From Chitinophaga agri (GTDB lineage: Bacteria; Bacteroidota; Bacteroidia; Chitinophagales; Chitinophagaceae): a stretch of DNA of 64,000 bases. Made by a program: the position numbers and the translations under genes. The stretch spans positions 4,836,001 through 4,900,000 of the forward strand of contig NZ_CP048113.1 of assembly GCF_010093065.1 (NCBI RefSeq), given 5' to 3'. Each line of letters opens with the position of its first letter. Within the stretch, counting starts at the first letter, position 1. The notes beneath the pieces were generated by a model. It was given only the letters and a program-made list of their open reading frames with translations. It was not told the DNA's origin and made no database searches. Below are positions 3,609-48,539 of this stretch, piece after piece.

Positions 3609-5279
3609 TTATTCAGCTATTAAACATCCAGCTACGTTCCAGGCACTGAAGCTGCCGCCTTCTCTTTCTCCTAATGGAATAGCCACTTTAAATGTATGCA
3701 GTCCCGGCGTGAGATCAGGCAAAGGTATGGTAACCGGTTCAGTTACACCACCCGGACACCAGTTGGACCTGCTCAGGTCAGAAGAGGAGAGACCATTGAT
3801 GAAGTTACCTGTTGCCGGATTCAGTAAGCGGAAGTTTCCACAGTCTGTTCTCCAGGGAATGAAGTGATATACCCGCTGCCCGTCGACAAAGATCTCATTC
3901 AGCTTCTTATTGAACTCATCTCCGCCACCCCAGCCGCCATGGCCGGTAGTGGTATAACGCAGCCGCAGGTTTTTCAGGCCTGCAGGGACATTTACGGTCA
4001 CTGCCAGCGAATCCTTTCCGAACATGGTACCATATTCCTGACCCGCCATTTCCATCAGGTTAGTGGAGTTGAAGATCGGCATGATCCAGTGCTTTTTAGT
4101 GGTAGTATCCTGGTCATTGTCCGCCGGATAATACTTCAGTCGCAGACTCACCTTGTGTCCTCCTTTATCATAGTTACCCACAAATACACCTATCCAGACG
4201 TCCCCTTCCAGACGTGGTTGTAATTCTGTGATGTCCTGACGGTATACGGCAGAATCAGCCCACTGATAACCTTTGATCTTCACTTTTTTGTTGTATTCAC
4301 TGATGCCGAAAGGCGTGAAAAAGCGCATCAGTTCCAAAGTAGGCAGGTAGCTGTCCGTAGCTATAACCCCACGGTACTTCTCATGATAAGCCGGTAGCGC
4401 ATTTACACCGTTTTTTAATCCGTCCAGGAATGACTGCTTTTTATCCATCGGAATCATAAATACAGCACCTGTGCGGTCATAGGAATCTCCGTTGGAAAAT
4501 GCTGCTACTTCGGCAAACAGGGTGCCGACTGGCAGTTTAGGCAGCTTCACCTTCTTCAGGATCACAGTACCTCCCGCATAGTGGTAGGTCACATTCTCCT
4601 GATCATCGGCCGGATCATGGTGTTCATTGCCCCAGCTGATCTGCTCATCAGTGAAAATTGGAATAGTGGTGAATCTGTTTTCAATTACCTGGCGCAGGTA
4701 AGTGGCGTCGTCCACCAGCTGGCCCATAGATGCAGGCCATTGTAATTCAGTGTCTTTTATAGTATGCAGATCTACTTTTGTCGCAATATATTCGGCAGTA
4801 CCGTTACGTACCGTTCTGAGTATCAGTCCCAGACCAGGCGCATAACCCTGAATCGGTGTTCCTTTTACCGGTAGTGCATCTGTGTACCAGATCTCAATGC
4901 TATTGGAGCGAACCCTCATTTTGGCCTTCTTACAGGGATATCCCAGTATAGTGTCTGTACCCGGTATCAGTTCCGGCTGATCATATTCAGCGAATGGCTT
5001 CTTAAATGTGAGCAGATGGCCTTCCTTGTCTTTGATCTGCTGGTAGGTTACCTTTCCTTTCTGGTCCAGCAGCTGCAGTTCTTTCTGTGCGACGGGATCA
5101 ACAGGTGCAAAACGGGCTTTATCTCCGCTGATGATCAGCTTAATATTCCCATCAGGCACTTCTTTTCCATTGTACCTGAATCCATATGTGACCTCGGCAC
5201 CGGCCTTTGTTCCTTTCGACTGTGCGAATGCGCTCCCTGCGACAAGCAGGGTCATCCACACGAATGACATTTTCTTCAT
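3609..5279 (-). CDS. Secreted PNGase F-like protein with GLPGLI-like N-terminal region
   Basis: A 556-residue exported protein with a signal peptide ending near AFA-QS (residue 20). Residues about 25-190 resemble the GLPGLI family, with a PGLGLILRTVRNG segment. The C-terminal part, about 255-556, resembles peptide:N-glycosidase F, which releases N-glycans from asparagine. A likely catalytic Asp lies in SYDRTG (near residue 266) and a likely catalytic Glu in the GGGDEFN segment (near 450). Trp/Cys-rich segments LSRSNWCPGG and SFSAWNV are also seen. It heads a minus-strand group with pnuC and the NadR-like kinase. The link to NAD salvage is unclear and may be only positional. Confidence 0.8.
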   Translation of the reverse strand: MKKMSFVWMTLLVAGSAFAQSKGTKAGAEVTYGFRYNGKEVPDGNIKLIISGDKARFAPVDPVAQKELQLLDQKGKVTYQQIKDKEGHLLTFKKPFAEYDQPELIPGTDTILGYPCKKAKMRVRSNSIEIWYTDALPVKGTPIQGYAPGLGLILRTVRNGTAEYIATKVDLHTIKDTELQWPASMGQLVDDATYLRQVIENRFTTIPIFTDEQISWGNEHHDPADDQENVTYHYAGGTVILKKVKLPKLPVGTLFAEVAAFSNGDSYDRTGAVFMIPMDKKQSFLDGLKNGVNALPAYHEKYRGVIATDSYLPTLELMRFFTPFGISEYNKKVKIKGYQWADSAVYRQDITELQPRLEGDVWIGVFVGNYDKGGHKVSLRLKYYPADNDQDTTTKKHWIMPIFNSTNLMEMAGQEYGTMFGKDSLAVTVNVPAGLKNLRLRYTTTGHGGWGGGDEFNKKLNEIFVDGQRVYHFIPWRTDCGNFRLLNPATGNFINGLSSSDLSRSNWCPGGVTEPVTIPLPDLTPGLHTFKVAIPLGEREGGSFSAWNVAGCLIAE

Positions 5280-5324
5280 AAGTATAAGTGTATCCTATTT
5301 ATGGCTAAAGATACTGGTATAAAT

Positions 5325-5359
5325 AAAAAAAGCACAGTCAAAAGACTGCGCTCTTTTTT
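5325..5359 (-). terminator. Terminator after nfu
   Basis: Nine-base arms at 5331-5339 and 5344-5352 surround an AAAA loop and are flanked by A and T runs. The single non-matching pair becomes G-U in RNA read from the minus strand and A-C in the other direction. It therefore fits termination of the minus-strand nfu transcript ending at 5386. Confidence 0.65.
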
Positions 5360-5385
5360 AACACTATCATTCTCTCAACTATGGC

Positions 5386-5982
5386 TTATTCTGCTTCTGC
5401 CACTACTTCTTTCACTTCTGGAATCATACGCTTCATCATGCCTTCAATACCGGCTTTCAGCGTGATCATAGAAGATGGGCAGCCTGAACAGGACCCCTGC
5501 AGCATCAACGTCACAGTACCGTCGTCGTAATCTTTAAACTGAATTGCACCACCATCCATTTCTACCGCTGGCTTTACGTAGTTCTCAAGTAATTCCTTGA
5601 TACGTTTTACAACATCGGTATCATCTGCACTTACTTCATTGGTGGCAGCTGCTTTTGTAACCACTATTTCCTCTTCGTTAACAACAGGACGGTTATCTTC
5701 CAGGTATTCCTTCAGGAAGGCTTTAATAGTAGGTATAATATCGTTCCAATCAGTGTCTGGCGTCTTCGTGAGTGTAATGAAGTTCGCCATGATAAAAACT
5801 CCTCTGATAAACGGGAAGCTGAACAACTCAACAGCCAATGGAGATGGCTTAGCGCTCGCCTCATCAGGGAAATCGATGTGCTTACCAGGGTACAACAGTT
5901 TGTTAGCTACAAACTTCATTGTCTCCGGATTGGGCGTCATTTCTGTATATATACTGATTATGGGATTGCCTGTTTTGATCAT
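5386..5982 (-). CDS. NifU/Nfu-type iron-sulfur scaffold protein
   Basis: A 198-residue cytoplasmic protein with two domains. Residues about 1-95 match the Nfu N-terminal domain (IYTEMTPNPETMKFV). Residues about 123-195 form the NifU C-terminal domain with the cluster-binding pair C165-SG-P-C168 in GSCSGCPSS. Such proteins carry assembled Fe-S clusters to target enzymes. Plausible clients in this window are NadA and glutamate synthase, although nothing shows a direct link. It is transcribed alone, divergent from the GHL10 gene. Confidence 0.9.
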   Translation of the reverse strand: MIKTGNPIISIYTEMTPNPETMKFVANKLLYPGKHIDFPDEASAKPSPLAVELFSFPFIRGVFIMANFITLTKTPDTDWNDIIPTIKAFLKEYLEDNRPVVNEEEIVVTKAAATNEVSADDTDVVKRIKELLENYVKPAVEMDGGAIQFKDYDDGTVTLMLQGSCSGCPSSMITLKAGIEGMMKRMIPEVKEVVAEAE

Positions 5983-6184: not shown

Positions 6185-6214
6185 TTGGTGGAATGATTCG
6201 TTTTGTTATTTTCG
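6185..6214 (+). promoter_or_regulatory. Candidate promoter of the GHL10 gene
   Basis: TTG at 6185-6187 and TATTTTCG at 6207-6214 are separated by 19 bp, close to the Bacteroidota pattern of a TTTG box and a TAnnTTTG box. The start codon lies 32 bp downstream. Found by eye. Confidence 0.45.
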
Positions 6215-6246
6215 CAGTTTTCAGGTCTTAACCTACAATTAGTAGA

Positions 6247-7779
6247 ATGTTGAAGTATTTATTGGGAGTTGCGCTGCTACTGACGGGCATCTTCGGTCAG
6301 GCACTTGCACAACTGCCGCCTAAACGGGAATTTCGTGCAGTATGGATCGCCACGGTAGAAAACATTGACTGGCCCTCCCGAAGGGGCCTGCCAGTGGAAA
6401 CACAGAAACAGGAATTTATTAATCTACTTGATAAACAGCAACGCAATGGTATGAACGCGGTGATCGTACAGATACGCCCGGTCGCCGATGCTTTCTACGA
6501 TTCTCCTTTCGAGCCCTGGTCCGAATACATCACCGGTACCCAGGGACAAGCGCCCAACCCTTATTATGATCCGCTTCGTTTTATGCTGGAAGAGACGCAT
6601 AAAAGAGGAATGGAATTTCATGCATGGTTCAATCCTTACCGCGCCGCTATTCGCAATACAACGTCCAACCACATCACCCGCATGCGTCCTCAGTGGTTCG
6701 TAACGTTTGATGGTAAAAAATACTTCGACCCGGGCATTCCGGAGGTCCGTGAATATGTGACCAATATCATCCGTGACGTAGTACGCCGCTATGATATTGA
6801 CGCTGTACATTTTGATGACTATTTCTATCCTTACCCGGTTCCGGGAAAAGAATTTGGCGACAACAACTCCTACCGCCAGTATGGTCGCAACATGATGAAA
6901 GACGACTGGCGCCGCTGGAATGTAGACACGATCATCCAGATGGTAGGTAAAATGATCAAGGAAGAAAAACCCTGGGTAAAATTCGGTATCAGTCCGTTCG
7001 GCATCTGGCGTAATAAGAATAAAGACCCTGAAGGTTCTTACTCTTCAGGTCTGTCCAACTACGACGACCTCTATGCTGATGTACTCAAATGGCTCAAAAA
7101 CGGCTGGATAGATTATGTCGCGCCACAGCTCTACTGGGAGCGGGGCCATCGTGTAGCCAATTATGAGTTGCTGCTGAACTGGTGGGCCCAGCATGGGTAT
7201 GGTCGCAATGTCTACATCGGCCATGGTGTATACCGCCTTAAAAGTAATGCTGCCTGGAGTATTCCCAACGAACTGCCTGTACAGATCACCGAGGTACGTA
7301 CACTCAACACTATACACGGCAGCGCCTTTTACAGCGCCAAGTCCTTCAATGGTAATCCTTTAGGCATTGAAGACAGTCTCCGCAACCACTTTTACCGTTA
7401 CCCCGCACTCAGACCAGCAATGCCCTGGATCAACATGCCATCGCCATTTCCGCCCTACTTCGTGGATGCGTTTGAACGCACAGATGGATTGCATCTGCAC
7501 TGGGCTGACCAGGATACATCCGGGCGTACGCAGCAATATGTGCTGTACCGCTTCGATGCCAATGAGTCTATTAACCTGGGTGATCCGACTAAAATACTGG
7601 CGATCGTACAGCAACAGTCGGAACCACAATATGTAGATCTCTCTTATGTAAAAGGCAGGCTGTACACATATGTTGTGACTGCCCTGAACAGGATGCAGAC
7701 GGAAAGCTGGGCCAGCGATCCCTTGTATATGCGTTTCTCAGGCAAAAAGACCCAGTTCATTATTGATCCTGAACCGTAG
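6247..7779 (+). CDS. Secreted GHL10 (DUF187) glycoside hydrolase-like protein
   Basis: A 510-residue exported protein with a signal peptide of about 21 residues (LAQ-LPP). Residues about 27-350 form the GHL10/DUF187 TIM-barrel, recognised from FRAVWIATVENIDWPS, an AWFNPYRA block, the DAVHFDDYFYP block with acidic residues where a retaining glycosidase would have its catalytic pair, and the IDYVAPQLYWERG block. Residues about 400-500 look like a fibronectin type III module. Some relatives act on peptidoglycan lacking the peptide stem. The exact substrate here is unknown. It ends before a bidirectional terminator shared with pafA. Confidence 0.88.
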   Translation: MLKYLLGVALLLTGIFGQALAQLPPKREFRAVWIATVENIDWPSRRGLPVETQKQEFINLLDKQQRNGMNAVIVQIRPVADAFYDSPFEPWSEYITGTQGQAPNPYYDPLRFMLEETHKRGMEFHAWFNPYRAAIRNTTSNHITRMRPQWFVTFDGKKYFDPGIPEVREYVTNIIRDVVRRYDIDAVHFDDYFYPYPVPGKEFGDNNSYRQYGRNMMKDDWRRWNVDTIIQMVGKMIKEEKPWVKFGISPFGIWRNKNKDPEGSYSSGLSNYDDLYADVLKWLKNGWIDYVAPQLYWERGHRVANYELLLNWWAQHGYGRNVYIGHGVYRLKSNAAWSIPNELPVQITEVRTLNTIHGSAFYSAKSFNGNPLGIEDSLRNHFYRYPALRPAMPWINMPSPFPPYFVDAFERTDGLHLHWADQDTSGRTQQYVLYRFDANESINLGDPTKILAIVQQQSEPQYVDLSYVKGRLYTYVVTALNRMQTESWASDPLYMRFSGKKTQFIIDPEP

Positions 7780-16162: not shown

Positions 16163-16355
16163 GTCGGGATTGGGTCTGATAATGATTATGTTAATTCCGG
16201 GTATAACCAGGGATGTTGTTGTCCTGACAAACTACATAATTATTTGATCCCACAGATACAACATCGCCGGCTTTTCATTTTCTTTCGGATCAGGGCATTC
16301 CGGCCACTCGCGTATTTAGCGACTTAGCGTGGTATTGGGTGGCTTTTAGTATGCT

Positions 16356-16449
16356 TTTAGTATTAGTAAGGTAAGCTTTCTCTTACGTTTCTCCTACGTT
16401 TTAAAACGTAAGAGAAACGTAAGAGAAAGCTTACCTTACTAATACTAAA
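16356..16449. repeat. 94-bp near-perfect palindrome without a loop
   Basis: Arms of 47 bp at 16356-16402 and 16403-16449 match with one mismatch (16394/16411), centred on TTTTAAAA. Each arm contains a nested direct repeat of the type ACGTAAGAGAA. Unlike the terminators in this window it has no loop and no gene ends close by: the nearest gene start or end is about 200 bp away. Its role is unknown; a cruciform, a protein-binding site or a remnant of a mobile palindrome are possible. Confidence 0.85.
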
Positions 16450-16648
16450 CCGAATCTAAACACTATTAAAAACACACATCCAACTGCGGACAGTCAGATA
16501 AATAACCTGGTGGGCTGCCGGTATACATATCGTGTTTGACCCTGTTTTTAGCCCATTGGCAACGTTCCCGGCAACCGGGGTGCTCCCGATGGTCACAACT
16601 AGGCCTTTTTGTCCTGAATGCCCCCTATCGGTCCTTTTTTATCGTTTG

Positions 16649-37453: not shown

Positions 37454-39562
37454 TTAAAAGAATTTGCCACGGTTGTCTTCGATCTTGCTCAGCTTTTTCA
37501 GCACAGCAAACAGCTGACCATCCAGCGCAGCAAGCATGCTTTGTTCATAAGCACGGCTTACGCTCTTAGGATCCTGACCGCCACCAGCGTTCTGGTAAGC
37601 ATCAACTTTTACTACATATACACCAGCGTTACCTTCGATTGGTGAGCTAACCTTAGCAGTACCCCAGTTCTTGTTGAAAGCTGCACCTACTACGCGAGGC
37701 TCAAAGCCCATGCTAGCTACGAAAGGAGTACCGAAACCGATACCTTCAGCTTTCTGCTCTGGTTGCGCGGTTGCTTTTGCAACGTCAGCCAGGGAAGCAG
37801 GAGATTTGATCTTTTCGATGATCTGAGCCGCTTTCTTTTCTTTTCTAACTTCTGCTTCAACAGTAGGTTTTACATCAGCCAGTGGCGCAACACCTTCAGC
37901 ACGAACAGCAGTCAGCACAGCTACTACATAAGTGTTATCAAAAGTGAATACGTTACTTACCGCACCAGCTTCAGAATCATATGCCCAACGAACCAGCTCA
38001 CGAGCCTGGCCGATACCTGGAATTACGAAGTCCATAGGTCGGAGGTTATCAGCAATACGTTTGTTAAGACCTTTCTCCTGAATAGTTTTTTCGAAAGTTT
38101 TCTGGTCACGGTTCTTAGAAGCGAACTCATTTGCTTGAGCGTATGCTTTGCTGTCAGTTTCACGGCTAGGCGTTACTGGTTTAGCAAGGTACGCGATCTT
38201 AACAGCGGAACCCACATTCTTCTGGTCCATGATCTGGATCAGGTGGTAACCAGCCTGTGTTTTTACTACTCCGATAGAACCTTTAGGTTTTTCCAGTGCG
38301 AAATCTTTAAATTCTTTCAGGAAGTCAGTAGAAGGAGTTACATCATATTCACCACCGGTTGGTTTGCTTCTTACGTCGTCTGTAAATTGTTCAACGAGCG
38401 CTTTGAAGTCAGCACCACCTTTAAACGCTCTTTCGATACTATCGATACGAGCTTTAGCGATAGAATCAGGTAAACCACCACCCTGTGGGTTCTGGGTAGC
38501 AATTAATATATGACGTACTTTAACGCTATCCGGTAAAGTCTTACGATCGATCATTTTAGCATAAACGATCAGGTTGTTATCATAATAAGGTCCGAATACA
38601 GCACCTACTGGTAAGCTAACCAATGTATCTTTCTGAGGCACCATCAGTGCGCTCTTAGCCACATAGCTATCATAAAAAGGCAGGTCAGAGTTACGGTTGA
38701 TAAATGCAGCAATGTCGTTGTTACCGATAGTATCCAACTCCTGTTTTGCATCCATCAGTACTTTCAGGGCAGCAGCTGTATCAGCAGCTGAAGGGATCAC
38801 GTTGAAAGCGATATAATCTACTTTACGGGATTCTTCTACCTTGAACAGTTCTTTATGTTTATTAATGAACTCATTCAGTTCGCCATCAGTTACTTTAACA
38901 GTAGAGTCAGCGATAGAGGCATACGGAACGGATACATAAGAAATAGATGCTGTCTGTGCGTTATCCAGGATTTGCTTTTCAGCTAACCATTTAGGATAAT
39001 AAACTGCCTGTTTGATCAGGGAGAGATATTTCTCAGAAACTCTTGACTGAGCGATATAGTCTTCCAGCTGGAGTAGACTGGCACGCATCTGACCGGTTTT
39101 ATCCTGGCCGATGCTGGCAAGTACCTGCTGCATACGTACACGGTCAAACTTTCCTGTTTTCTCATCAGTGAACTGTTGAGTAATAATAGGACTAGGATTT
39201 TGACCGGTGAATTGATCCTTGATCTCTTCTTCGGTTACCGCGATACCCAGTTTCTCGTACTGAGCATTCAAGATATTGTCGCTCAGGAATTTGTTCCATG
39301 CGGATTCACGGGCCTGCTGAGTGATTTGCTCATTCACGCCCCCATTAGACATACGCATACGGTCCTCAGCAGTCTTAATCATTTGCTGATAGTCCGCAAA
39401 TTCGAGTTCCTCGCCGTTTACTTTACCAACAGTCGTGGAGCGGCGGATAATTGAGTTTTTGCCAAAAAAGGCATCCTGTAGCAGGAAACTAACAATAGCC
39501 AGGCAGATCACTACTACGATCACCACGGCATATTTATCCCTGATCTTCTGAATAACTGACAT
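37454..39562 (-). CDS. ppiD: PpiD-like periplasmic chaperone/peptidyl-prolyl isomerase
   Basis: A 702-residue protein anchored by one N-terminal membrane helix (about residues 13-31). It has a SurA N-terminal-like chaperone domain (about 40-170), a parvulin PpiC domain (about 345-465, with VRHILIA and GYHLIQI), and a second, degenerate rotamase-like region near 510-640. PpiD helps outer membrane and secreted proteins leaving the Sec channel. It is transcribed alone from a strong candidate promoter. Confidence 0.93.
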   Translation of the reverse strand: MSVIQKIRDKYAVVIVVVICLAIVSFLLQDAFFGKNSIIRRSTTVGKVNGEELEFADYQQMIKTAEDRMRMSNGGVNEQITQQARESAWNKFLSDNILNAQYEKLGIAVTEEEIKDQFTGQNPSPIITQQFTDEKTGKFDRVRMQQVLASIGQDKTGQMRASLLQLEDYIAQSRVSEKYLSLIKQAVYYPKWLAEKQILDNAQTASISYVSVPYASIADSTVKVTDGELNEFINKHKELFKVEESRKVDYIAFNVIPSAADTAAALKVLMDAKQELDTIGNNDIAAFINRNSDLPFYDSYVAKSALMVPQKDTLVSLPVGAVFGPYYDNNLIVYAKMIDRKTLPDSVKVRHILIATQNPQGGGLPDSIAKARIDSIERAFKGGADFKALVEQFTDDVRSKPTGGEYDVTPSTDFLKEFKDFALEKPKGSIGVVKTQAGYHLIQIMDQKNVGSAVKIAYLAKPVTPSRETDSKAYAQANEFASKNRDQKTFEKTIQEKGLNKRIADNLRPMDFVIPGIGQARELVRWAYDSEAGAVSNVFTFDNTYVVAVLTAVRAEGVAPLADVKPTVEAEVRKEKKAAQIIEKIKSPASLADVAKATAQPEQKAEGIGFGTPFVASMGFEPRVVGAAFNKNWGTAKVSSPIEGNAGVYVVKVDAYQNAGGGQDPKSVSRAYEQSMLAALDGQLFAVLKKLSKIEDNRGKFF

Positions 39563-39593
39563 ATATTATATAGTCTAAATTTTTTAAGGAAAG

Positions 39594-39625
39594 CAAAAAT
39601 AGAATAAAATAATTGTAACTACAAA
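39594..39625 (-). promoter_or_regulatory. Promoter of ppiD
   Basis: On the minus strand, TTTG at 39622-39625 and TATTTTTG at 39594-39601 are separated by 20 bp. Both boxes fit the Bacteroidota TTTG/TAnnTTTG consensus exactly. The start codon lies 31 bp downstream. Confidence 0.65.
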
Positions 39626-39697
39626 AAGGTTTTCATTCGCCGAAACCCAATACAGTAAAGGGTTTGGGGCATTTTATCGTGAAAAGTATTCCAAGTT

Positions 39698-40273
39698 TCA
39701 TTCACAGGTTATCCACATTTGTCATGATTTTTGTACCAGGTATTGGTTGCACCTGTTGATTTTTAAATACGGCTACAGGCCATTATTTCAGGAAAAGGGT
39801 GATGCCAAAACCATGTGTTTGGTTATTCACATTTTGGAAGTGGCAAATTCTTCATCCACATAAAATTGTGAAAAAGATTCATGTAAAGCTAAAAAAGCAA
39901 ATTCAACCTGTGATAACTTTTTAGTTGTAGTTTATCCACATCGGCTGTTAAAAAACTGGCAAAAGTTGTTCAATATCTTCTTAAAAACTCTACTTCGGGT
40001 ACCTGAAAACTAATTTTGTTATTTCAAAAGAAACTGGTCCGGATGGAAAAAGTGGATTTCTCCGCCGAGTTTTACCTCACTATTAACATTTTCTTAATAC
40101 AGGGTCCATTAAAAAATTATTCACGGGAAACGATATCCACGGGTGTGGATTAAAATAGGGTTTTCCAGTGCTATGGCCAATCTCGACTGTTAATTTGCTG
40201 TGGATAGCCGTGTTAAAAGGAATAACAACTACATTTGTACACAGCGGTCAAAATTTGTTTTCACATATTCACA
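39698..40273. other. oriC: Putative replication origin: DnaA-box cluster
   Basis: Between divergent ppiD and nadA, two perfect DnaA boxes (TTATCCACA) lie at 39709-39717 and 39932-39940, plus strand. Sites with one mismatch or fitting TTWTNCACA lie at 39823-39831, 39852-39860, 39867-39875 (minus), 40144-40152 (minus) and 40199-40207 (minus). Weaker ones lie at 39698, 40117, 40133 and 40265. The region is AT-rich and an almost pure A/T stretch runs from about 40290 to 40325. A chance cluster of this density is very unlikely. mnmG (gidA), a common origin neighbour, and two parS-like sites lie within 7 kb. The origin role is inferred. Confidence 0.65.
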
Positions 40274-40325
40274 GCCCTAATAGTAGTGGGTTTTTCTTTT
40301 TTAAAAAATAACTAGATATATAATT

Positions 40326-41333
40326 ATGATGAGGGAGCTGGAAATTGCTAAAAGCGAACTTCAAAAAAAAGGGTACCTCGATTTGCCGGTTGATGTGCGT
40401 CTGGACCTTTTTGCAGAAATCGAAAGATTAAAGAAAGAAAAAAATGCGATCGTCCTGGCGCATTATTACCAGGAACCAGATATTCAGGATGTAGCCGACT
40501 ACATCGGAGATAGTTTGGGCTTAAGTCAGCAGGCTGCAAAAACCGATGCTGACATTATTGTTTTTGCCGGTGTGCATTTTATGGCTGAGACAGCAAAGAT
40601 TTTGAGTCCGCAGAAGAAGGTATTGCTTCCTGATCTCAAAGCGGGTTGTTCCCTAGCCGACAGCGCTCCTCCCGAGCTTTTCAGAAAGTTCAAGGAGAAG
40701 CACCCCGACCACCTCGTTATTTCCTACATAAACTGTTCTGCGGGTATCAAGGCCCTCAGCGATATCATTTGCACGTCCTCTAATGCCGAAAAGATCATTG
40801 AGAGCGTTCCAAAGGACCAGCCGATCATTTTTGCCCCCGACAGGAATTTAGGCGGTTATTTGGCCAAAAAAACGGGTAGGGAAATGTTACTATGGAACGG
40901 AGCATGCATGGTGCATGAGATATTTTCCCTTGAAAAAATAACAAAACTGAAGATCCGTCATCCGAAAGCCAAGGTGATAGCGCATCCAGAATGTGAAGCG
41001 GCTATTCTCGATATTGCCGATTACATCGGATCGACAACTGCGCTGTTGAATTTTTCGAAAAAGGACGACGCGAAGGAATACATTGTGGTGACCGAAACCG
41101 GAATTTTACACCAGATGCAAAAAGAAAATCCTTCGAAAACTTTCATTCCGGCTCCTCCCAATAATGCATGCGCCTGCAACGACTGTCCACACATGAAATT
41201 GAACACACTTGAAAAGTTGTATTTGTGTATGGAGTTCGAACAACCAGAGATTACTATGAACGAACAATTGCGGATCGCTGCTAAAAAACCGATTGAGCGT
41301 ATGTTAGAGATCAGTGCTCAGTATGGATTATAG
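40326..41333 (+). CDS. nadA: Quinolinate synthase
   Basis: A 335-residue NadA that condenses iminoaspartate with dihydroxyacetone phosphate to quinolinate in NAD synthesis. The oxygen-sensitive 4Fe-4S cluster is bound by C108 (KAGCSLAD), C194 (NGACMVHE) and a C-terminal Cys of the CNDCPHM motif (C284 or C287). The [21 protein letters not shown] block marks the first of three pseudo-symmetric domains. nadB and nadC are not next to it. Its leader overlaps the AT-rich end of the putative origin. A terminator follows. Confidence 0.96.
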
Positions 41334-41385: not shown

Positions 41386-41424
41386 TAAAAAGGCCTGGTT
41401 AGCGTGCTAATCGGGCCTTTTTTA
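41386..41424 (+). terminator. Terminator of nadA
   Basis: An A run and AGGCC pair with GGCCT and a T run, and an inner GGTTAGC pairs with GCTAATC through one G-U pair around a two-base tip. It begins 53 bp after the nadA stop codon. It stands at the left edge of the tandem array and shares the AAAGGCC sequence seen in the array units. Confidence 0.75.
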
Positions 41425-41539: not shown

Positions 41540-42665
41540 ATCACGTGGGGGGGTACGGGGATTTTTCGTACAGGCAATTCTCAGGATGCTTATTTACGAA
41601 GGCCTTATAGCTGTAATAACTTCCCCTCATAAGATAATCATCCGGATAAGTGTATCCTGACGGCTTTATGTGAAGGCCTCATAGTTTTGTTGAAGTTTGA
41701 TATGCTGTAGGGGACTACGGGAATTTAGTTTTCAACATGATTATGGGGCTTTCGTTTTTGAAGGCCTTATGGATGCAACGAAATTCACATTGTGTGAATT
41801 GGGATTGTGTAATAAACTATAAGCCGTTTATTTTGAATGTTTTTTAGGTGAACTACGTGTGGATATCGTGTGGGTACCTACGAGAATGTTTAATTTATTG
41901 AACGGAAATCGCCTTCCTTTTTGAACACGTTATAGAGGCGATGGTGTTTTAAATGTGGATAATATATGGGGCTATTTAAACCTCAGCCTGTTCATGAAAG
42001 CGTTATGCTTGAAATGAATTTTTTTACCTGTGGACACCCACAGGTCTTTTTATTTAATAACGATTATGCGCGTTTAAATTTTAAAGGCCTTTTAGTTGTG
42101 ATGGGATTTGGTTGCCTGGGATATTCTGAAGATCACTTTATTCTCAGCGCTTTCACGAAGCGCTTGTGTGTGAGGTAATAATTTATTCCTGTGTATACCT
42201 ACAGGTTTTTTTGTCTGATCGAAAATGACAGGCCTTTATTTTTTAATGGCCTGTAAATAAGGTGAAAGTCAGCCGTCTGGAGAATAGTTAGATGTATCAA
42301 ATTCTCAGGCTTTCATGAAGGACTTGTGAATTGATTGATGATATGTAGCTGTGGGATACCACAGCTATTCTTTCTCGATCAAAAATGTGAGGCTTTCGTC
42401 GGTAAGAGCTTTCTAATTGCGATAAAAATATCAGGACGGAGCGGTGTATAGATGGATTAATTCTCGACACCTTCGCTAACCGCTATGTTTGGGATAATGC
42501 AAAAATGCTGTAGGTAGGTACGAGTGAAGGTAATTGGAGTCAACTACATGTTACTTATTTCTGGAGCTTTGCAATAGCGAAAGAATTTTGAAGGGGTACT
42601 AATAAATGCGATATGTTTCTGGCCGTTTGTTAAGCAAGAGCCGATTATACATGTGATATCCACAT
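41540..42665. repeat. Tandem array of about seven diverged ~161-bp units with hairpins
   Basis: Each unit has three elements. Box A is a small hairpin at 41543, 41704, 41866, 42026, 42187, 42347 and 42508 (steps of 160-162). Element a has a consensus close to GGCTTTCnTTTTTGAAGGCC, with anchors at about 41598, 41760, 41922, 42083, 42244 and 42404. Element b is related to a, with anchors at about 41672, 41834, 41995, 42157, 42317 and 42476. Anchor steps alternate between 73-74 and 87-88 bp. Box A of two units forms perfect 8-bp stems that differ by a compensated C-G to G-C exchange (42027-42046, 42348-42367). No coding capacity is apparent. A perfect DnaA box (minus, 41954-41962) lies inside the array. 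Confidence 0.75.
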
Positions 42666-43722
42666 TTTTGAAGAATTTTTTTCATTTTTTCTAATTTCTT
42701 TTGTCGACGCGCCGTTCTCCCCAGAAAATGTGAATATGTGAGTTACTTCAGGTTATTTTCCCCCGATGTTGCTTTGTTATGCGGAGTAGACGGAGTTTTT
42801 CATTGAATTTCATGCCTTTTTACAATGACATTGTGGAAAAGTTTTAGGAACCTAGACTATAAATAGGTTAAATGAAGAAATATATTTATTGCACCTTTGA
42901 AATGTGAATAACAGGGGAGGATATCGCGAGGTTTTTGTTATTTATCTTTTTATTTCTGTTTTCTGGCGCTCTTATGTGGATTTGCGACCTGATTTTTTTT
43001 CTTTCTGATAGGAGATATTAACAACTAATTGATTTAAGAGGAGCTCATGTGAATTTATAATCTTTATTATGCCAGTTCATTGTCCATCCTGCTTTTTTAG
43101 CATTTTCAGGGGTAATATGCCCTTTTTCTTATTTTTTTTGCCAATTTAGCTTTAGAGCATATGATAACTAGACAGTTATCCACAAATCAGCACTTAATCC
43201 AGGACTTCTCCATATTTTTACAGACTTTCTCATTGTAGTCTAATGTTCTTTCCAATATGGTTGGAAAACTTCAATTTATTCACAATAACATGGCTAGCTT
43301 GCATACCAAGCAGCTATTCAATAGTGTTTCGGCATGCAGACATTTGGGTGAGTAGTGACAATGTCAATGGTGGCAGGGAAAAGTATACACTTCGACCCCG
43401 TTTAGTTCTGCTCCAATGAAAGCAGAGATGGAATGTTATCAATCTATATGATGTTTTTTAAGGCAGGCTCTCCTTCTCTGCGTTGTTGAACTGTAAACAT
43501 ATAGTAGATAGCTAGGTAATGATAACTATTGCTAAAGGCAGGTGTTTTTAGAAACTACAGTGGATTGGCTGCCTTATATAGTCAGGTCATGTTTATTTCA
43601 GCAAAGACGTTCTTCCTTTTCTTGCGATATTGGGCGAGGGGAGTATCGTGTTGAAGTAGATTCAGATAATGGAGGGGGAATAGAAAGGATATTGTAGCAA
43701 AATAATATTAGCGGTTAAACAC
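42666..43722. other. Gene-free region after the array, with DnaA boxes
   Basis: About 1.06 kb with no supported gene and many T runs on the plus strand. It holds a perfect DnaA box TTATCCACA at 43176-43184 and TTATTCACA at 43276-43284. A one-mismatch box, ATATCCACA at 42656-42664, lies at its left border inside the last array hairpin. I see no tRNA, terminator or further 161-bp unit. Confidence 0.55.
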
Positions 43723-43779: not shown

Positions 43780-44019
43780 TCAGACCAATTCTTCTACCCA
43801 TATATAGTCTGCTTCTGTTTTTCGGAGGGATAGATTATATCCAGCTACCATAATTGAGATAGGATCTCCAAGAGGGGCGATCTTCTCCACTTTCACTGTC
43901 TCACCAGGTACACAACCCATTTCCATTAACTTAAGGTGCAAATCATCTTTTTCGAAAGATGTGATCACGGCACTTTTTCCAATAGCAAGTGAAGACAACT
44001 TAATCACTCCTTTTTTCAT
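43780..44019 (-). CDS. feoA: FeoA-domain protein
   Basis: A 79-residue SH3-like FeoA protein with the typical LSSLAIGKSAVITSFE start, MEMGCVPGETVKV and DPISIMVAGYNLSLRK segments. FeoA is a small cytoplasmic partner of the FeoB ferrous iron transporter. No feoB follows; the next 2.4 kb downstream is gene-free. It therefore either serves a distant feoB or has another role. It is a single-gene unit with its own terminator. Confidence 0.9.
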   Translation of the reverse strand: MKKGVIKLSSLAIGKSAVITSFEKDDLHLKLMEMGCVPGETVKVEKIAPLGDPISIMVAGYNLSLRKTEADYIWVEELV

Positions 44020-44210: not shown

Positions 44211-44645
44211 ATGGCGATCAATTTTACTGCTAATGAGGTAAAGGTTAATCTGAAGAACAGAACAAAGCTCAAAGCTTTTATAAAGGAGTTATTTACCAGA
44301 GAAGGACAGGGGCTTAAAAATCTTCAGTATGTTTTTTGTAGTGATGAGTATCTACTCGAAATCAACCAGGAATTTCTGCAGCATGATACCTTAACTGACA
44401 TTGTTACTTTTGAATTAGGAGAGGATCCGAATATCACTGAAGGAGAAATCTATATCAGTATTGATAGAGTTAGGGACAACGCGGAAAAGTTTAAGGTAAC
44501 TGAAGAGCAAGAATTGCATCGCGTAATTTTCCATGGCGCCCTACATCTCTGTGGTTACAAAGACAAGACAAAAGAGCAATCTGCCAACATGAGGGCGAAG
44601 GAAAATGAAGCAATTGAAATGTATTTTGGCATAAAAATATCATAA
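44211..44645 (+). CDS. ybeY: Endoribonuclease YbeY
   Basis: A 144-residue metal-dependent RNase needed for 16S rRNA 3' end maturation and ribosome quality control. The signature is HGALHLCGYKD: H108 and H112 are the first two zinc ligands, and D118 stands where E. coli YbeY has its third His. As I recall, this exchange is common in Bacteroidota. TAGTTTCG at 44199-44206 resembles a -7 box but would leave almost no leader. The stop codon overlaps a parS-type palindrome. Confidence 0.94.
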   Translation: MAINFTANEVKVNLKNRTKLKAFIKELFTREGQGLKNLQYVFCSDEYLLEINQEFLQHDTLTDIVTFELGEDPNITEGEIYISIDRVRDNAEKFKVTEEQELHRVIFHGALHLCGYKDKTKEQSANMRAKENEAIEMYFGIKIS

Positions 44646-44663
44646 TGTTCCACGTGGAACATT
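44644..44663. promoter_or_regulatory. parS: parS-type ParB binding site 1
   Basis: A perfect 20-bp palindrome, AATGTTCCACGTGGAACATT. Its 16-bp core (44646-44661) equals the chromosomal parS sequence TGTTCCACGTGGAACA described for Pseudomonas and is close to the general bacterial consensus. It overlaps the last two bases of ybeY and precedes its terminator. No parA or parB gene lies in this window. Confidence 0.8.
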
Positions 44664-46641: not shown

Positions 46642-46649
46642 TACTTTTG
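46642..46649 (+). promoter_or_regulatory. TAnnTTTG box of mnmG
   Basis: TACTTTTG matches the -7 consensus exactly and lies 21 bp before the ATG at 46671. The -33 region falls at the right end of parS-type site 2, and no separate TTTG box is seen there. Confidence 0.5.
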
Positions 46650-46670
46650 CAGTTCTATTTAAACAAAATT

Positions 46671-48539
46671 ATGTTTCCATCATACGATGTAATTGTGGTA
46701 GGCGCCGGACATGCCGGTTGCGAAGCGGCGGCAGCTGCTGCAAACATGGGATCAAAAGTACTGTTGATCACCATGAACATGCAAACCATCGCTCAGATGA
46801 GTTGTAACCCGGCAATGGGAGGTATCGCTAAAGGACAGATAGTTAGAGAGATTGATGCATTAGGAGGATACTCAGGAATTGTGACGGATCAATCTATGAT
46901 ACAGTTCCGGATGCTGAACCGTTCCAAAGGACCGGCGATGTGGAGTCCCAGAACCCAGAATGACAGAATGTTGTTCGCGGCGAAGTGGAGAGAAGCATTG
47001 GAACAGACACCTAACGTTGACTTCTACCAGGACATGGTGAAAGGACTACTGGTGAAAGATGGCAGATGTTATGGCGTAGTCACTGGAATGGGACACGAAA
47101 TAAAAGCTAAATCAGTTGTACTGACAAATGGTACATTCCTAAATGGAGTGATGCATATTGGCGACAAACAATTTGGTGGAGGACGCGTTGCTGAAAAAGC
47201 AGCCACAGGCATCACAGAACAATTAGTGACGCTTGGCTTCGAAAGCGACAGATTAAAAACAGGTACCCCGCCAAGAATTGATGCCAGAAGTCTAGATTAT
47301 TCCAAAATGGAGGAACAACCGGGTGACGATGTAATCACCGGTTTTTCTTACCTGGATGTTGAAAAGATTAAACCTGAGCAACAAAGAAGTTGCCACGTCA
47401 CTTATACAAGTGACAAAGTACATGAAATGCTGAAGACAGGTTTCGACAGGTCTCCTATGTTTCAGGGCAGGATTCAGGGGGTCGGACCACGGTATTGTCC
47501 AAGTATCGAAGATAAGATCAACCGTTTCGCCGAAAGGGACAGACACCAGTTATTTGTAGAACCTGAAGGTTGGAACACGGTTGAAATTTATGTGAATGGA
47601 TTCTCCACATCCTTGCCGGAAGATGTACAGTATAAAGCACTGCAGTTGGTACCTGGGTTTGAGAATGTGAAAATGTTCCGTCCGGGATATGCTATTGAAT
47701 ATGATTATTTTCCACCAACCCAATTACAATTTTCTCTGGAAACTAAACAGATCCAGCACCTGTTTTTCGCCGGGCAAATAAATGGTACTACTGGATATGA
47801 GGAGGCCGCATGTCAGGGTCTGATGGCAGGCATCAATGCACACCTGAAAGCAAACGGTCAGGCGCCATTTGTATTGAAAAGGAGTGAAGCCTATATCGGC
47901 GTACTGATAGATGATCTTATTAATAAAGGTACCGATGAGCCATATAGAATGTTCACATCAAGAGCTGAATTCAGAACATTGCTGAGACAGGATAACGCCG
48001 ACCTGCGGCTTACAGAGACTAGTTTCCAAATGGGACTCGCCCGACAAAACAGGCTCGACAAAGTGATTATTAAGAAAGAAGGTGTAGAAAAGATCAAAGC
48101 GATTCTGAAAGAACTGCCAATTGATCCGGAAGATATTAACCACCTGCTGGCTGAGAAAAATACCTCGGCATTACCACAGCGTATGCGCGCTTACCAGATC
48201 CTCCTGCGTCCTTCTATGGATATCTTCTCCATGAAACGCAACGTAACAAAAATCGGGAAAGCACTGGCTGAGTTTTCAGACGAAGTACTGGAACAAGCAG
48301 AGATCCAGATCAAGTATGAGGTATATATTGAAAAGGAAAATGACCTGGTGAAGAGAATGAGTCAGATGGAAGACCTGCTGATACCTGATGGTTTTGATTA
48401 TACCAAACTGGTATCACTGAGTGCAGAAGCCAGACAAAAATTTAACAAGATCCGCCCACGTACCCTTGGTCAGGCAAGCAGGATCAGTGGTGTAAATCCA
48501 AGCGATGTACAGATACTGATGGTATACATGGGGAGATAA
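46671..48539 (+). CDS. mnmG: tRNA uridine-5-carboxymethylaminomethyl modification enzyme MnmG (GidA)
   Basis: A 622-residue FAD enzyme starting at the ATG at 46671; the longer frame starts with TTG inside the promoter box. With MnmE it modifies the wobble uridine of several tRNAs. The FAD motif VVGAGHAGCEAAAAAANMG is near the N-terminus, followed by the GidA signatures CNPAMGGIAKGQ and GPRYCPSIEDKI. mnmG is often next to the replication origin, which agrees with the DnaA boxes and parS-type sites upstream. Confidence 0.96.
   Translation: MFPSYDVIVVGAGHAGCEAAAAAANMGSKVLLITMNMQTIAQMSCNPAMGGIAKGQIVREIDALGGYSGIVTDQSMIQFRMLNRSKGPAMWSPRTQNDRMLFAAKWREALEQTPNVDFYQDMVKGLLVKDGRCYGVVTGMGHEIKAKSVVLTNGTFLNGVMHIGDKQFGGGRVAEKAATGITEQLVTLGFESDRLKTGTPPRIDARSLDYSKMEEQPGDDVITGFSYLDVEKIKPEQQRSCHVTYTSDKVHEMLKTGFDRSPMFQGRIQGVGPRYCPSIEDKINRFAERDRHQLFVEPEGWNTVEIYVNGFSTSLPEDVQYKALQLVPGFENVKMFRPGYAIEYDYFPPTQLQFSLETKQIQHLFFAGQINGTTGYEEAACQGLMAGINAHLKANGQAPFVLKRSEAYIGVLIDDLINKGTDEPYRMFTSRAEFRTLLRQDNADLRLTETSFQMGLARQNRLDKVIIKKEGVEKIKAILKELPIDPEDINHLLAEKNTSALPQRMRAYQILLRPSMDIFSMKRNVTKIGKALAEFSDEVLEQAEIQIKYEVYIEKENDLVKRMSQMEDLLIPDGFDYTKLVSLSAEARQKFNKIRPRTLGQASRISGVNPSDVQILMVYMGR

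Follow-up and report, generated by a model that had tools for sequence, protein, structure and literature searches.

A regular array of symmetrical DNA elements, repeating about every 161 bp, occupies the noncoding gap downstream of nadA in the window (the whole 64,000-nucleotide stretch of Chitinophaga agri DNA analysed here), where it most likely lies between the replication origin oriC and the parS sites. We put at about even the chances that it is a cis-acting nucleoprotein array of the oriC-parS interval of Chitinophaga, whose dyads would bind putative dimeric proteins and which would modulate initiation or organise the origin. Many members of the genus carry evenly spaced symmetrical elements in this interval, with a sequence that varies by lineage and a layout that stays.

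We examined the periodicity of 41540-42665 and found a smoothed autocorrelation score of 3.75 at lag 161, compared to a mean of 1.33 and a maximum of 1.77 in 200 dinucleotide shuffles, which bears out the ~161-bp periodic array proposed in the initial annotation. Self-identity reaches 0.33-0.36 at lags 160-162, the mean over lags being 0.270. The array was absent from the Tandem Repeats Finder list for the window (score of at least 30), as expected since its units are too diverged. The box A copies start at ~41544 (taken from the alignment with two relatives), 41706, 41869, 42029, 42190, 42350 and 42509, at spacings of 162, 163, 160, 161, 160 and 159 bp; seven box A hairpins had been described at 160-162 bp, and the seven copies measured lie 159-163 bp apart. 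Each unit holds two larger dyads, a and b, between successive box A copies, in the order dyad a, ~40 bp, box A, ~46 bp, dyad b, ~74 bp, next a. The dyad coordinates (Table 1) match the reported alternation of a and b at 73-74 and 87-88 bp, and the right arms of a and b recur at 162-, 163-, 160- and 74-bp steps (repeats D1 and D2). Both box A stems singled out earlier were located (42026-42045 and 42346-42367), as was the DnaA box said to lie in the array, which is perfect (41954). The inverted-repeat density, on its own a weak signal, is five stems in the window region compared to a mean of 1.2 in six shuffles. The array is noncoding, begins past the terminator-like repeat behind nadA and stops before the convergent FeoA-domain gene. 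In summary, a regular ~161-bp array with dyads is confirmed.

Table 1. Features of the nadA-ybeY region and its flanks (positions within the window; +, forward strand; -, reverse strand)
Feature	Position	Strand	Remarks
SurA/PPIase-type gene	37454-39562	-	left flank of probable oriC gap
Probable oriC, divergent gap between SurA/PPIase-type gene and nadA	39563-40325		6 DnaA boxes within 1 mismatch
DnaA boxes of the oriC gap	39709, 39823, 39852, 39932; 40144, 40199	+ (first four); - (last two)	within 1 mismatch
nadA (quinolinate synthase)	40326-41333	+	PF02445, E 1.9e-125
Terminator-like inverted repeat (I5) behind nadA, start of noncoding gap	41387-41422	+	kept in two relatives
Left array, period ~161 bp, box A alternating with dyads a and b	41544-42640	+	
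Box A copy 1 (diverged)	41544-41557		from alignment with two relatives
Box A copy 2	41705-41720		
Box A copy 3	41869-41882		
Box A copy 4	42026-42045		perfect dyad ACCTGTGG/CCACAGGT
Box A copy 5	42188-42205		
Box A copy 6	42346-42367		perfect dyad TAGCTGTGG/CCACAGCTA
Box A copy 7 (diverged)	42509-42522		
Dyad	41576-41610	+	ATTCTCAG...GAAGGCCTTATAG
Dyad	41656-41684	+	right arm GAAGGCCTCATAG
Dyad	41745-41772	+	right arm GAAGGCCTTATGG
Dyad, weak in this genome	41818-41847	+	position from alignment
Dyad	41908-41935	+	
Dyad	41981-42007	+	
Dyad	42068-42095	+	right arm AAAGGCCTTTTAG
Dyad	42140-42170	+	ATTCTCAGCGCTTTCACGAAGCGCTTGTGTG, 31 bp like that of relatives
Dyad	42228-42254	+	ACAGGCCTTTA/TAATGGCCTGT
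Dyad	42301-42331	+	ATTCTCA-N17-TGTGAAT, geometry of the relatives' 31-bp element
Dyad	42389-42413	+	
Dyad	42460-42487	+	ATTCTCGAC...CCGCTATG
Perfect DnaA box inside array	41954-41962	-	
Right part, AT-rich	42640-43720		5 DnaA boxes within 1 mismatch: 42656 +, 42832 -, 42903 -, 43176 +, 43276 +
FeoA-domain gene closing the gap, convergent with nadA	43780-44019	-	PF04023, E 1.8e-20
ybeY	44211-44645	+	PF02130, E 5.1e-25
parS	44646-44661		perfect, TGTTCCACGTGGAACA
parS, other perfect copy in genome	46605-46620		
mnmG (gidA)	46647-48539	+	PF01134, E 4.8e-163

The origin itself most likely corresponds to ~39563-40325, upstream of nadA, since the DnaA-box cluster there is conserved in position and the GC-skew switch lies nearby. 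The boxes of this gap (within one mismatch) compare with a shuffle mean of 0.24, and none of 200 shuffles had as many. Within the genus, boxes at -620, -395 and -183 from nadA (within 14 bp) were found in 28, 28 and 27 of 30 genomes, and those at -505 and -128 in 25 and 17 of the 30. Of the 14 family pieces around parS that include nadA, 13 of other genera and one of Chitinophaga, 10 show a noncoding gap with at least three DnaA boxes upstream of this gene. The source genome is a single contig of 7.97 Mb, in which dnaA is 0.87 Mb distant from the array; the GC skew, sampled in 20 pieces of 20 kb, is positive in all ten on the right of the array and negative in eight of the ten on its left, the two exceptions lying more than 3 Mb off. 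An oriC inside the array was ruled out, given the conserved cluster upstream of nadA and the two boxes of the left array (14/200 shuffles as high). Hence, the array is origin-associated as had been claimed, but nadA separates it from the conserved cluster, which places it between oriC and parS. Using a parS consensus that we take to be TGTTYCACGTGRAACA, the only perfect sites genome-wide are those at 44646 and 46605, 2-4 kb from the dyads, and the array contains none at up to three mismatches. With oriC most likely upstream of nadA and the only perfect parS copies at these positions, the array fills the oriC-parS interval. The order nadA-gap-ybeY is found in 58/60 genus pieces (the two misses are contig ends), and parS follows ybeY in 58/60, the misses being the truncated pieces L056 and L080. 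No Rep protein is present among the five neighbouring proteins named by Pfam.

The nadA-downstream region of the window was compared with that of 59 further genomes of the genus, only three of which match it by blastn. Periodicity was tested in 59 pieces, including the window's and excluding L056, with 20 shuffles per piece: 29 exceeded their own shuffle maximum and 30 did not, two of these being tied. The top lag of the 29 periodic pieces is 81-83 bp in 17 and 161-164 bp (~2 x 82) in 5, the others being 124, 134 or 155. A 31-bp dyad, ATTCTCA-N17-TGAGAAT, whose inner arms are GCGC, is present in the gap of 26 genomes (type B), where a 57-bp element model gives 6 to 12 forward matches per gap, a count that is circular for these genomes, from which the model was mostly built, and not for the rest. 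The internal gap is N17 in 188 of 245 candidate dyads, the next commonest gap accounting for 11 of them, and consecutive N17 elements less than 130 bp apart (n = 97) are spaced by 81-84 bp in 65 cases and 71-74 bp in 27. In 17 aligned genomes, motif and spacing are kept and linkers have diverged, and clade B genomes hold their elements within a few bp of the same positions despite diverged linkers. The array is origin-associated, as initially suggested, as well as regular and apparently constrained. The 20 type B genomes with box A contain 37 copies, of which 27 have an element at most 130 bp downstream, 23 of them at 40-42 bp.

The 31-bp dyad is largely restricted to this locus: at up to three mismatches, 25 whole genomes contain 73 places, with 70 falling inside this gap and 3 outside it, compared to 5 for the reversed control, and G000, G047, G050 and G013 have none. 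The a and b dyads of the window itself differ greatly from the consensus of the relatives (one forward and two reverse model matches; no place at up to three mismatches), so it is position, geometry and alignment that tie them to the 31-bp element. At up to two mismatches, box A lacks locus specificity, with 9 of 11 places lying elsewhere in this genome (reversed control 4), 11 of 15 in G047 (control 1), 6 of 11 in G048 (control 4) and 3 of 5 in G056 (control 3). Helical phasing (clade B R of 0.57 at 10.3 bp/turn, null maximum 0.185) is not claimed, since the spacings fall into just three main classes, orthologous copies lack independence and clade A (~74, ~87 bp) misfits.

On a nadA tree of 60 genomes, the array labels A, B, D and none, assigned by model and by eye, need three changes, which is the minimum possible, against a shuffled mean of 28.9. 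Clade A, the window's own (8 genomes), has right arms GGCCTTATAG and box A CTGTRGGTACCYACAG. Despite differing linkers, the copies of a clade share the form of the motif typical of that clade, which suggests that one trans factor acts on them. The dyad model is empty in 19/60 genomes, bar one match in L095; four of these carry another array, two are truncated and several have short gaps, seven having been read by eye. The array is therefore dispensable at the genus level. A sister clade (L055, L057, L064 and L065) has a different array, of hairpins with the loop GTGATAGA mostly 125-144 bp apart, and its periodicity is above shuffles in L055 and L057 only. Over the first 1500 bp past nadA, the loops of these hairpins contain an invariant TGATAG, and by eye they alternate with TCTGAAA...TTTTCGGA dyads. 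By eye, L067 has a loose repeat and L095, on a deep branch, degenerate ATTCTCA-like dyads, neither above shuffles. In L039, L041 and L044, the array, on a reading of the sequence, runs into an unrelated gene; a reverse-strand gene, short-chain dehydrogenase-like by eye, lies behind the array at the position of the DnaA-box half of other genomes.

Of 147 family genomes, 144 of which belong to genera other than Chitinophaga, 47 contain the ATTCTCA dyad core at one mismatch, at no more than 4 places each, on separate contigs or tens of kb apart. Among 19 pieces around parS from other genera, the 16 with a testable gap show no 82- or 161-bp peak; L157, L158 and L174, with no noncoding gap of 450 bp, were left out. 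In the longest noncoding run downstream of named nadA loci (73 of 80), there was one strong peak, in L179, which is Chitinophaga. Conservation beside nadA in relatives thus extends to many Chitinophaga, but no array was found in the other genera examined, and the best reading is of a lineage-specific, fast-evolving array. A survey of open-licence PubMed Central papers, at the level of titles and abstract openings, yielded none on such an array. Separately, raw, repeat-like peaks of 2.8-3.3 at lags 109, 99 and 52 appear in three pieces from other genera, L159 (9807-10705), L169 (7821-8587) and L163 (0-779), in noncoding gaps near parS or at a piece end.

We next consider whether structure or sequence is under selection. 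In 185 type B dyads (the 188 with N17 minus 3 from non-type-B genomes), the inner positions form Watson-Crick pairs about as often as in shuffles (z -2.4 to 1.6); the seven outer pairs had served for selection and provide no test. Since its inner arms do not covary, and with its exact N17 gap, the 31-bp dyad looks like a double-stranded protein target with two half-sites. The rather unlikely alternative of elements that form hairpins near the origin, in single-stranded DNA or by supercoil extrusion, and serve in this form for priming, protein loading or strand-specific recognition, has to contend with these dyads, but it fits other elements better. The 23 sister-clade hairpins have a covariation score of 0.517 compared to 0.272 when shuffled (0/500 as high; slid controls at most 0.166) and changes on both sides in 9 of 10 pairs; they behave as genuine hairpins, in an array that may however be a non-homologous element. 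For box A of clade A (31 of 33 copies kept), the covariation is moderate, 0.284 compared to 0.200 (0/500; slid controls at most 0.167), with 79% paired against 73% in shuffles; relatedness of copies inflates the scores and shuffle counts of both sets. Over the 33 copies, a clear excess is seen only at the central pair and the pair 3 bp outside the core, and the purine/pyrimidine position of the core pairs in 16/33 copies against 16.8 by chance. Hence, of the 'covarying' hairpins first described, the moderate excess over shuffles stands and the core position does not, and selection on hairpin structure is weak in the window's clade, absent in the relatives' 185 dyads and strong for the different sister-clade array. 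Of seven arrays folded, six have a negative local z on both strands, but the counts of G-T and A-C wobbles single out neither strand.

The folding results also bear on the proposal that the locus encodes small structured RNAs in an array, or else one long noncoding transcript with structure, which is very unlikely. Some hairpins are followed by T-runs, terminator-like sites number 6 compared to 2.1 in shuffles, and the sister-clade stems covary. However, the folding z of the window's array is similar on the two strands (-1.30 and -1.08), the large dyads lack covariation, and promoters show no excess (10 compared to 9.9 in shuffles, by a sigma-70 consensus that may not fit this phylum). Rfam gave no match in the window at the gathering threshold and none up to E 1 in the gap; in four relatives' pieces, its 12 matches at E up to 1 all fell below their own gathering score. 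Moreover, the genes on either side of the gap converge on it, and nadA is followed by a terminator-like repeat. The RNA claim of the initial annotation therefore finds little positive support. Box A was also considered as a terminator and rejected, its T-runs being inconsistent among relatives by eye from the alignment.

A reservoir for DnaA, in which the locus would mainly be a titration or DnaA-switching site beside oriC of the datA/DARS type, with dyads binding an IHF- or Fis-like architectural partner, is quite unlikely. Evidence for it comes from the right part, where the DnaA boxes compare with a shuffle mean of 0.30 (0/200 as high) and form a cluster outside oriC in the datA/DARS sense. 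Gaps of eight type B relatives (L058-L061, L068, L069, L071 and L073) contain 8-11 boxes, and those of L087, L093 and L094 contain 29, 22 and 13. Boxes frequently recur at intervals of 50-52 or 61-63 bp: box-like sites of the right half often lie 50-52 bp apart, or two to three times this (with exceptions such as 72 and 133), and the steps are mostly 61-64 bp in L087 and L093. Set against this, the 161-bp array has only its two boxes, and genomes that keep the dyads may have few boxes or none (0 in L053, L084 and L085, 1 in L062 and 0-2 in L039-L043 of the window's clade). Of the suggested DnaA titration, a DnaA-binding role is plausible for the right half. In L087 and L093, 21 and 16 DnaA-box-like sites were seen ~1000-2250 bp past nadA. 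A selfish or neutral satellite, that is, functionless repeats that expand and turn over by recombination at a tolerant site by the origin, is highly improbable. Arrays do differ between clades and are absent in others, and the right half of L087 shows a recent homogeneous expansion (a 124-bp tandem repeat of 7.5 copies), but element positions kept in clade B through linker divergence are not expected under neutral turnover.

We return to the nucleoprotein array, our preferred explanation. The a and b dyads would be the counterparts, by position and geometry, of the 31-bp element, and together with box A they are most likely candidate sites for one or two dimeric proteins. The exact internal geometry, the independently conserved half-sites, the locus restriction and the clade-wide change of copies point to a trans-acting DNA-binding protein, and we infer from them a dimeric mode of binding and co-evolution with this factor. 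Dyads and the adjoining DnaA-box-rich half may form an extended nucleoprotein structure, which would modulate initiation, for example by holding DnaA, or alternatively would organise the origin, once copied, ahead of its segregation by ParB. The location of the array in the oriC-parS interval, with DnaA boxes alongside, suggests such initiation control or sister-origin organisation; a promoter role is unlikely, since the flanking genes are convergent, and a modulating role is favoured by the fact that some members of the genus lack the array. Counted against this explanation are the box A-like sites outside the locus, the divergence of the window's own dyads from the relatives' consensus, and the sister-clade hairpins and weak box A covariation, which fit single-stranded structure better. 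A broader and doubtful version would be an 'origin satellite', a dense and regular array from oriC to parS in which each clade has substituted an element of its own (31-bp ATTCTCA dyad, GGCCTTATAG version or GTGATAGA hairpins), symmetry and regular spacing persisting through co-evolution with a DNA-binding protein that changes fast and assembles a structure controlling segregation or initiation; the whole might then be a functional analogue of centromeric satellites.

If true, this would show that a repeat array can evolve fast and yet be maintained between the origin and the centromere of a bacterium. To our knowledge, the origin biology of Bacteroidota has been little studied. The analysis proposes an oriC location for these genomes and defines a target of 1-2.5 kb in a genus with cultured members, and the 31-bp dyad offers a consensus bait for the putative origin-binding protein. 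Other repeats were also observed. Exact 11-bp tandem duplications occur at 16342, 16404, 16649, 19436 and 46202, several with related units (AACAAGCGACG, ACGTAAGAGAA), and by eye those around 16360-16470 make up a long inverted repeat. Over 464 kb of the genome there are 11 tandem duplications at period 11 and none at 10, 12 or 13; this looks like a dispersed repeat family. L038 has long tandem repeats of 312 and 266 bp (4792-5639 and 6199-6693) downstream of ybeY, near parS.

E. coli datA, DARS1 and DARS2 are described as noncoding clusters of DnaA boxes with sites for architectural proteins that control initiation (PMC5742627), and the right part is likewise a noncoding DnaA-box cluster outside oriC. 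The E. coli sites are compact, with few DnaA boxes and an IHF and/or Fis site, whereas here a kilobase array with two other dyads occupies the oriC-parS interval. The origin-proximal region of E. coli is dense in DnaA boxes, with a role in titration (PMC12371093). Both cases have DnaA sites concentrated near the origin, but in Chitinophaga the boxes adjoin a regular array of non-DnaA dyads. The iteron-type origin of V. cholerae chromosome II has 12-mers and 39-mers for a dedicated protein, RctB, some of them inhibitory (PMC5395669). Here too, arrayed sites at an origin would be candidates for a dedicated protein, but the adjacent oriC looks like an ordinary DnaA-box type, and element length, dyad form and the 82-bp step differ. 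We know of no iteron-type initiator for the Chitinophaga array, nor of a system in which DnaA boxes and a kilobase array of two non-DnaA dyads occur together between oriC and parS. Like parS, the target of ParB, and like Noc-binding sites, which are palindromes around the origin, the elements are palindromic and origin-proximal; parS, however, is 16 bp long and present twice, and the dyads are ~31 bp, of other sequence, and arrayed. As an analogy only, with no homology and with unit sequences that differ strongly within one genome, the array may be likened to eukaryotic centromeric satellites, which combine a fixed period with fast sequence turnover beside the segregation apparatus.
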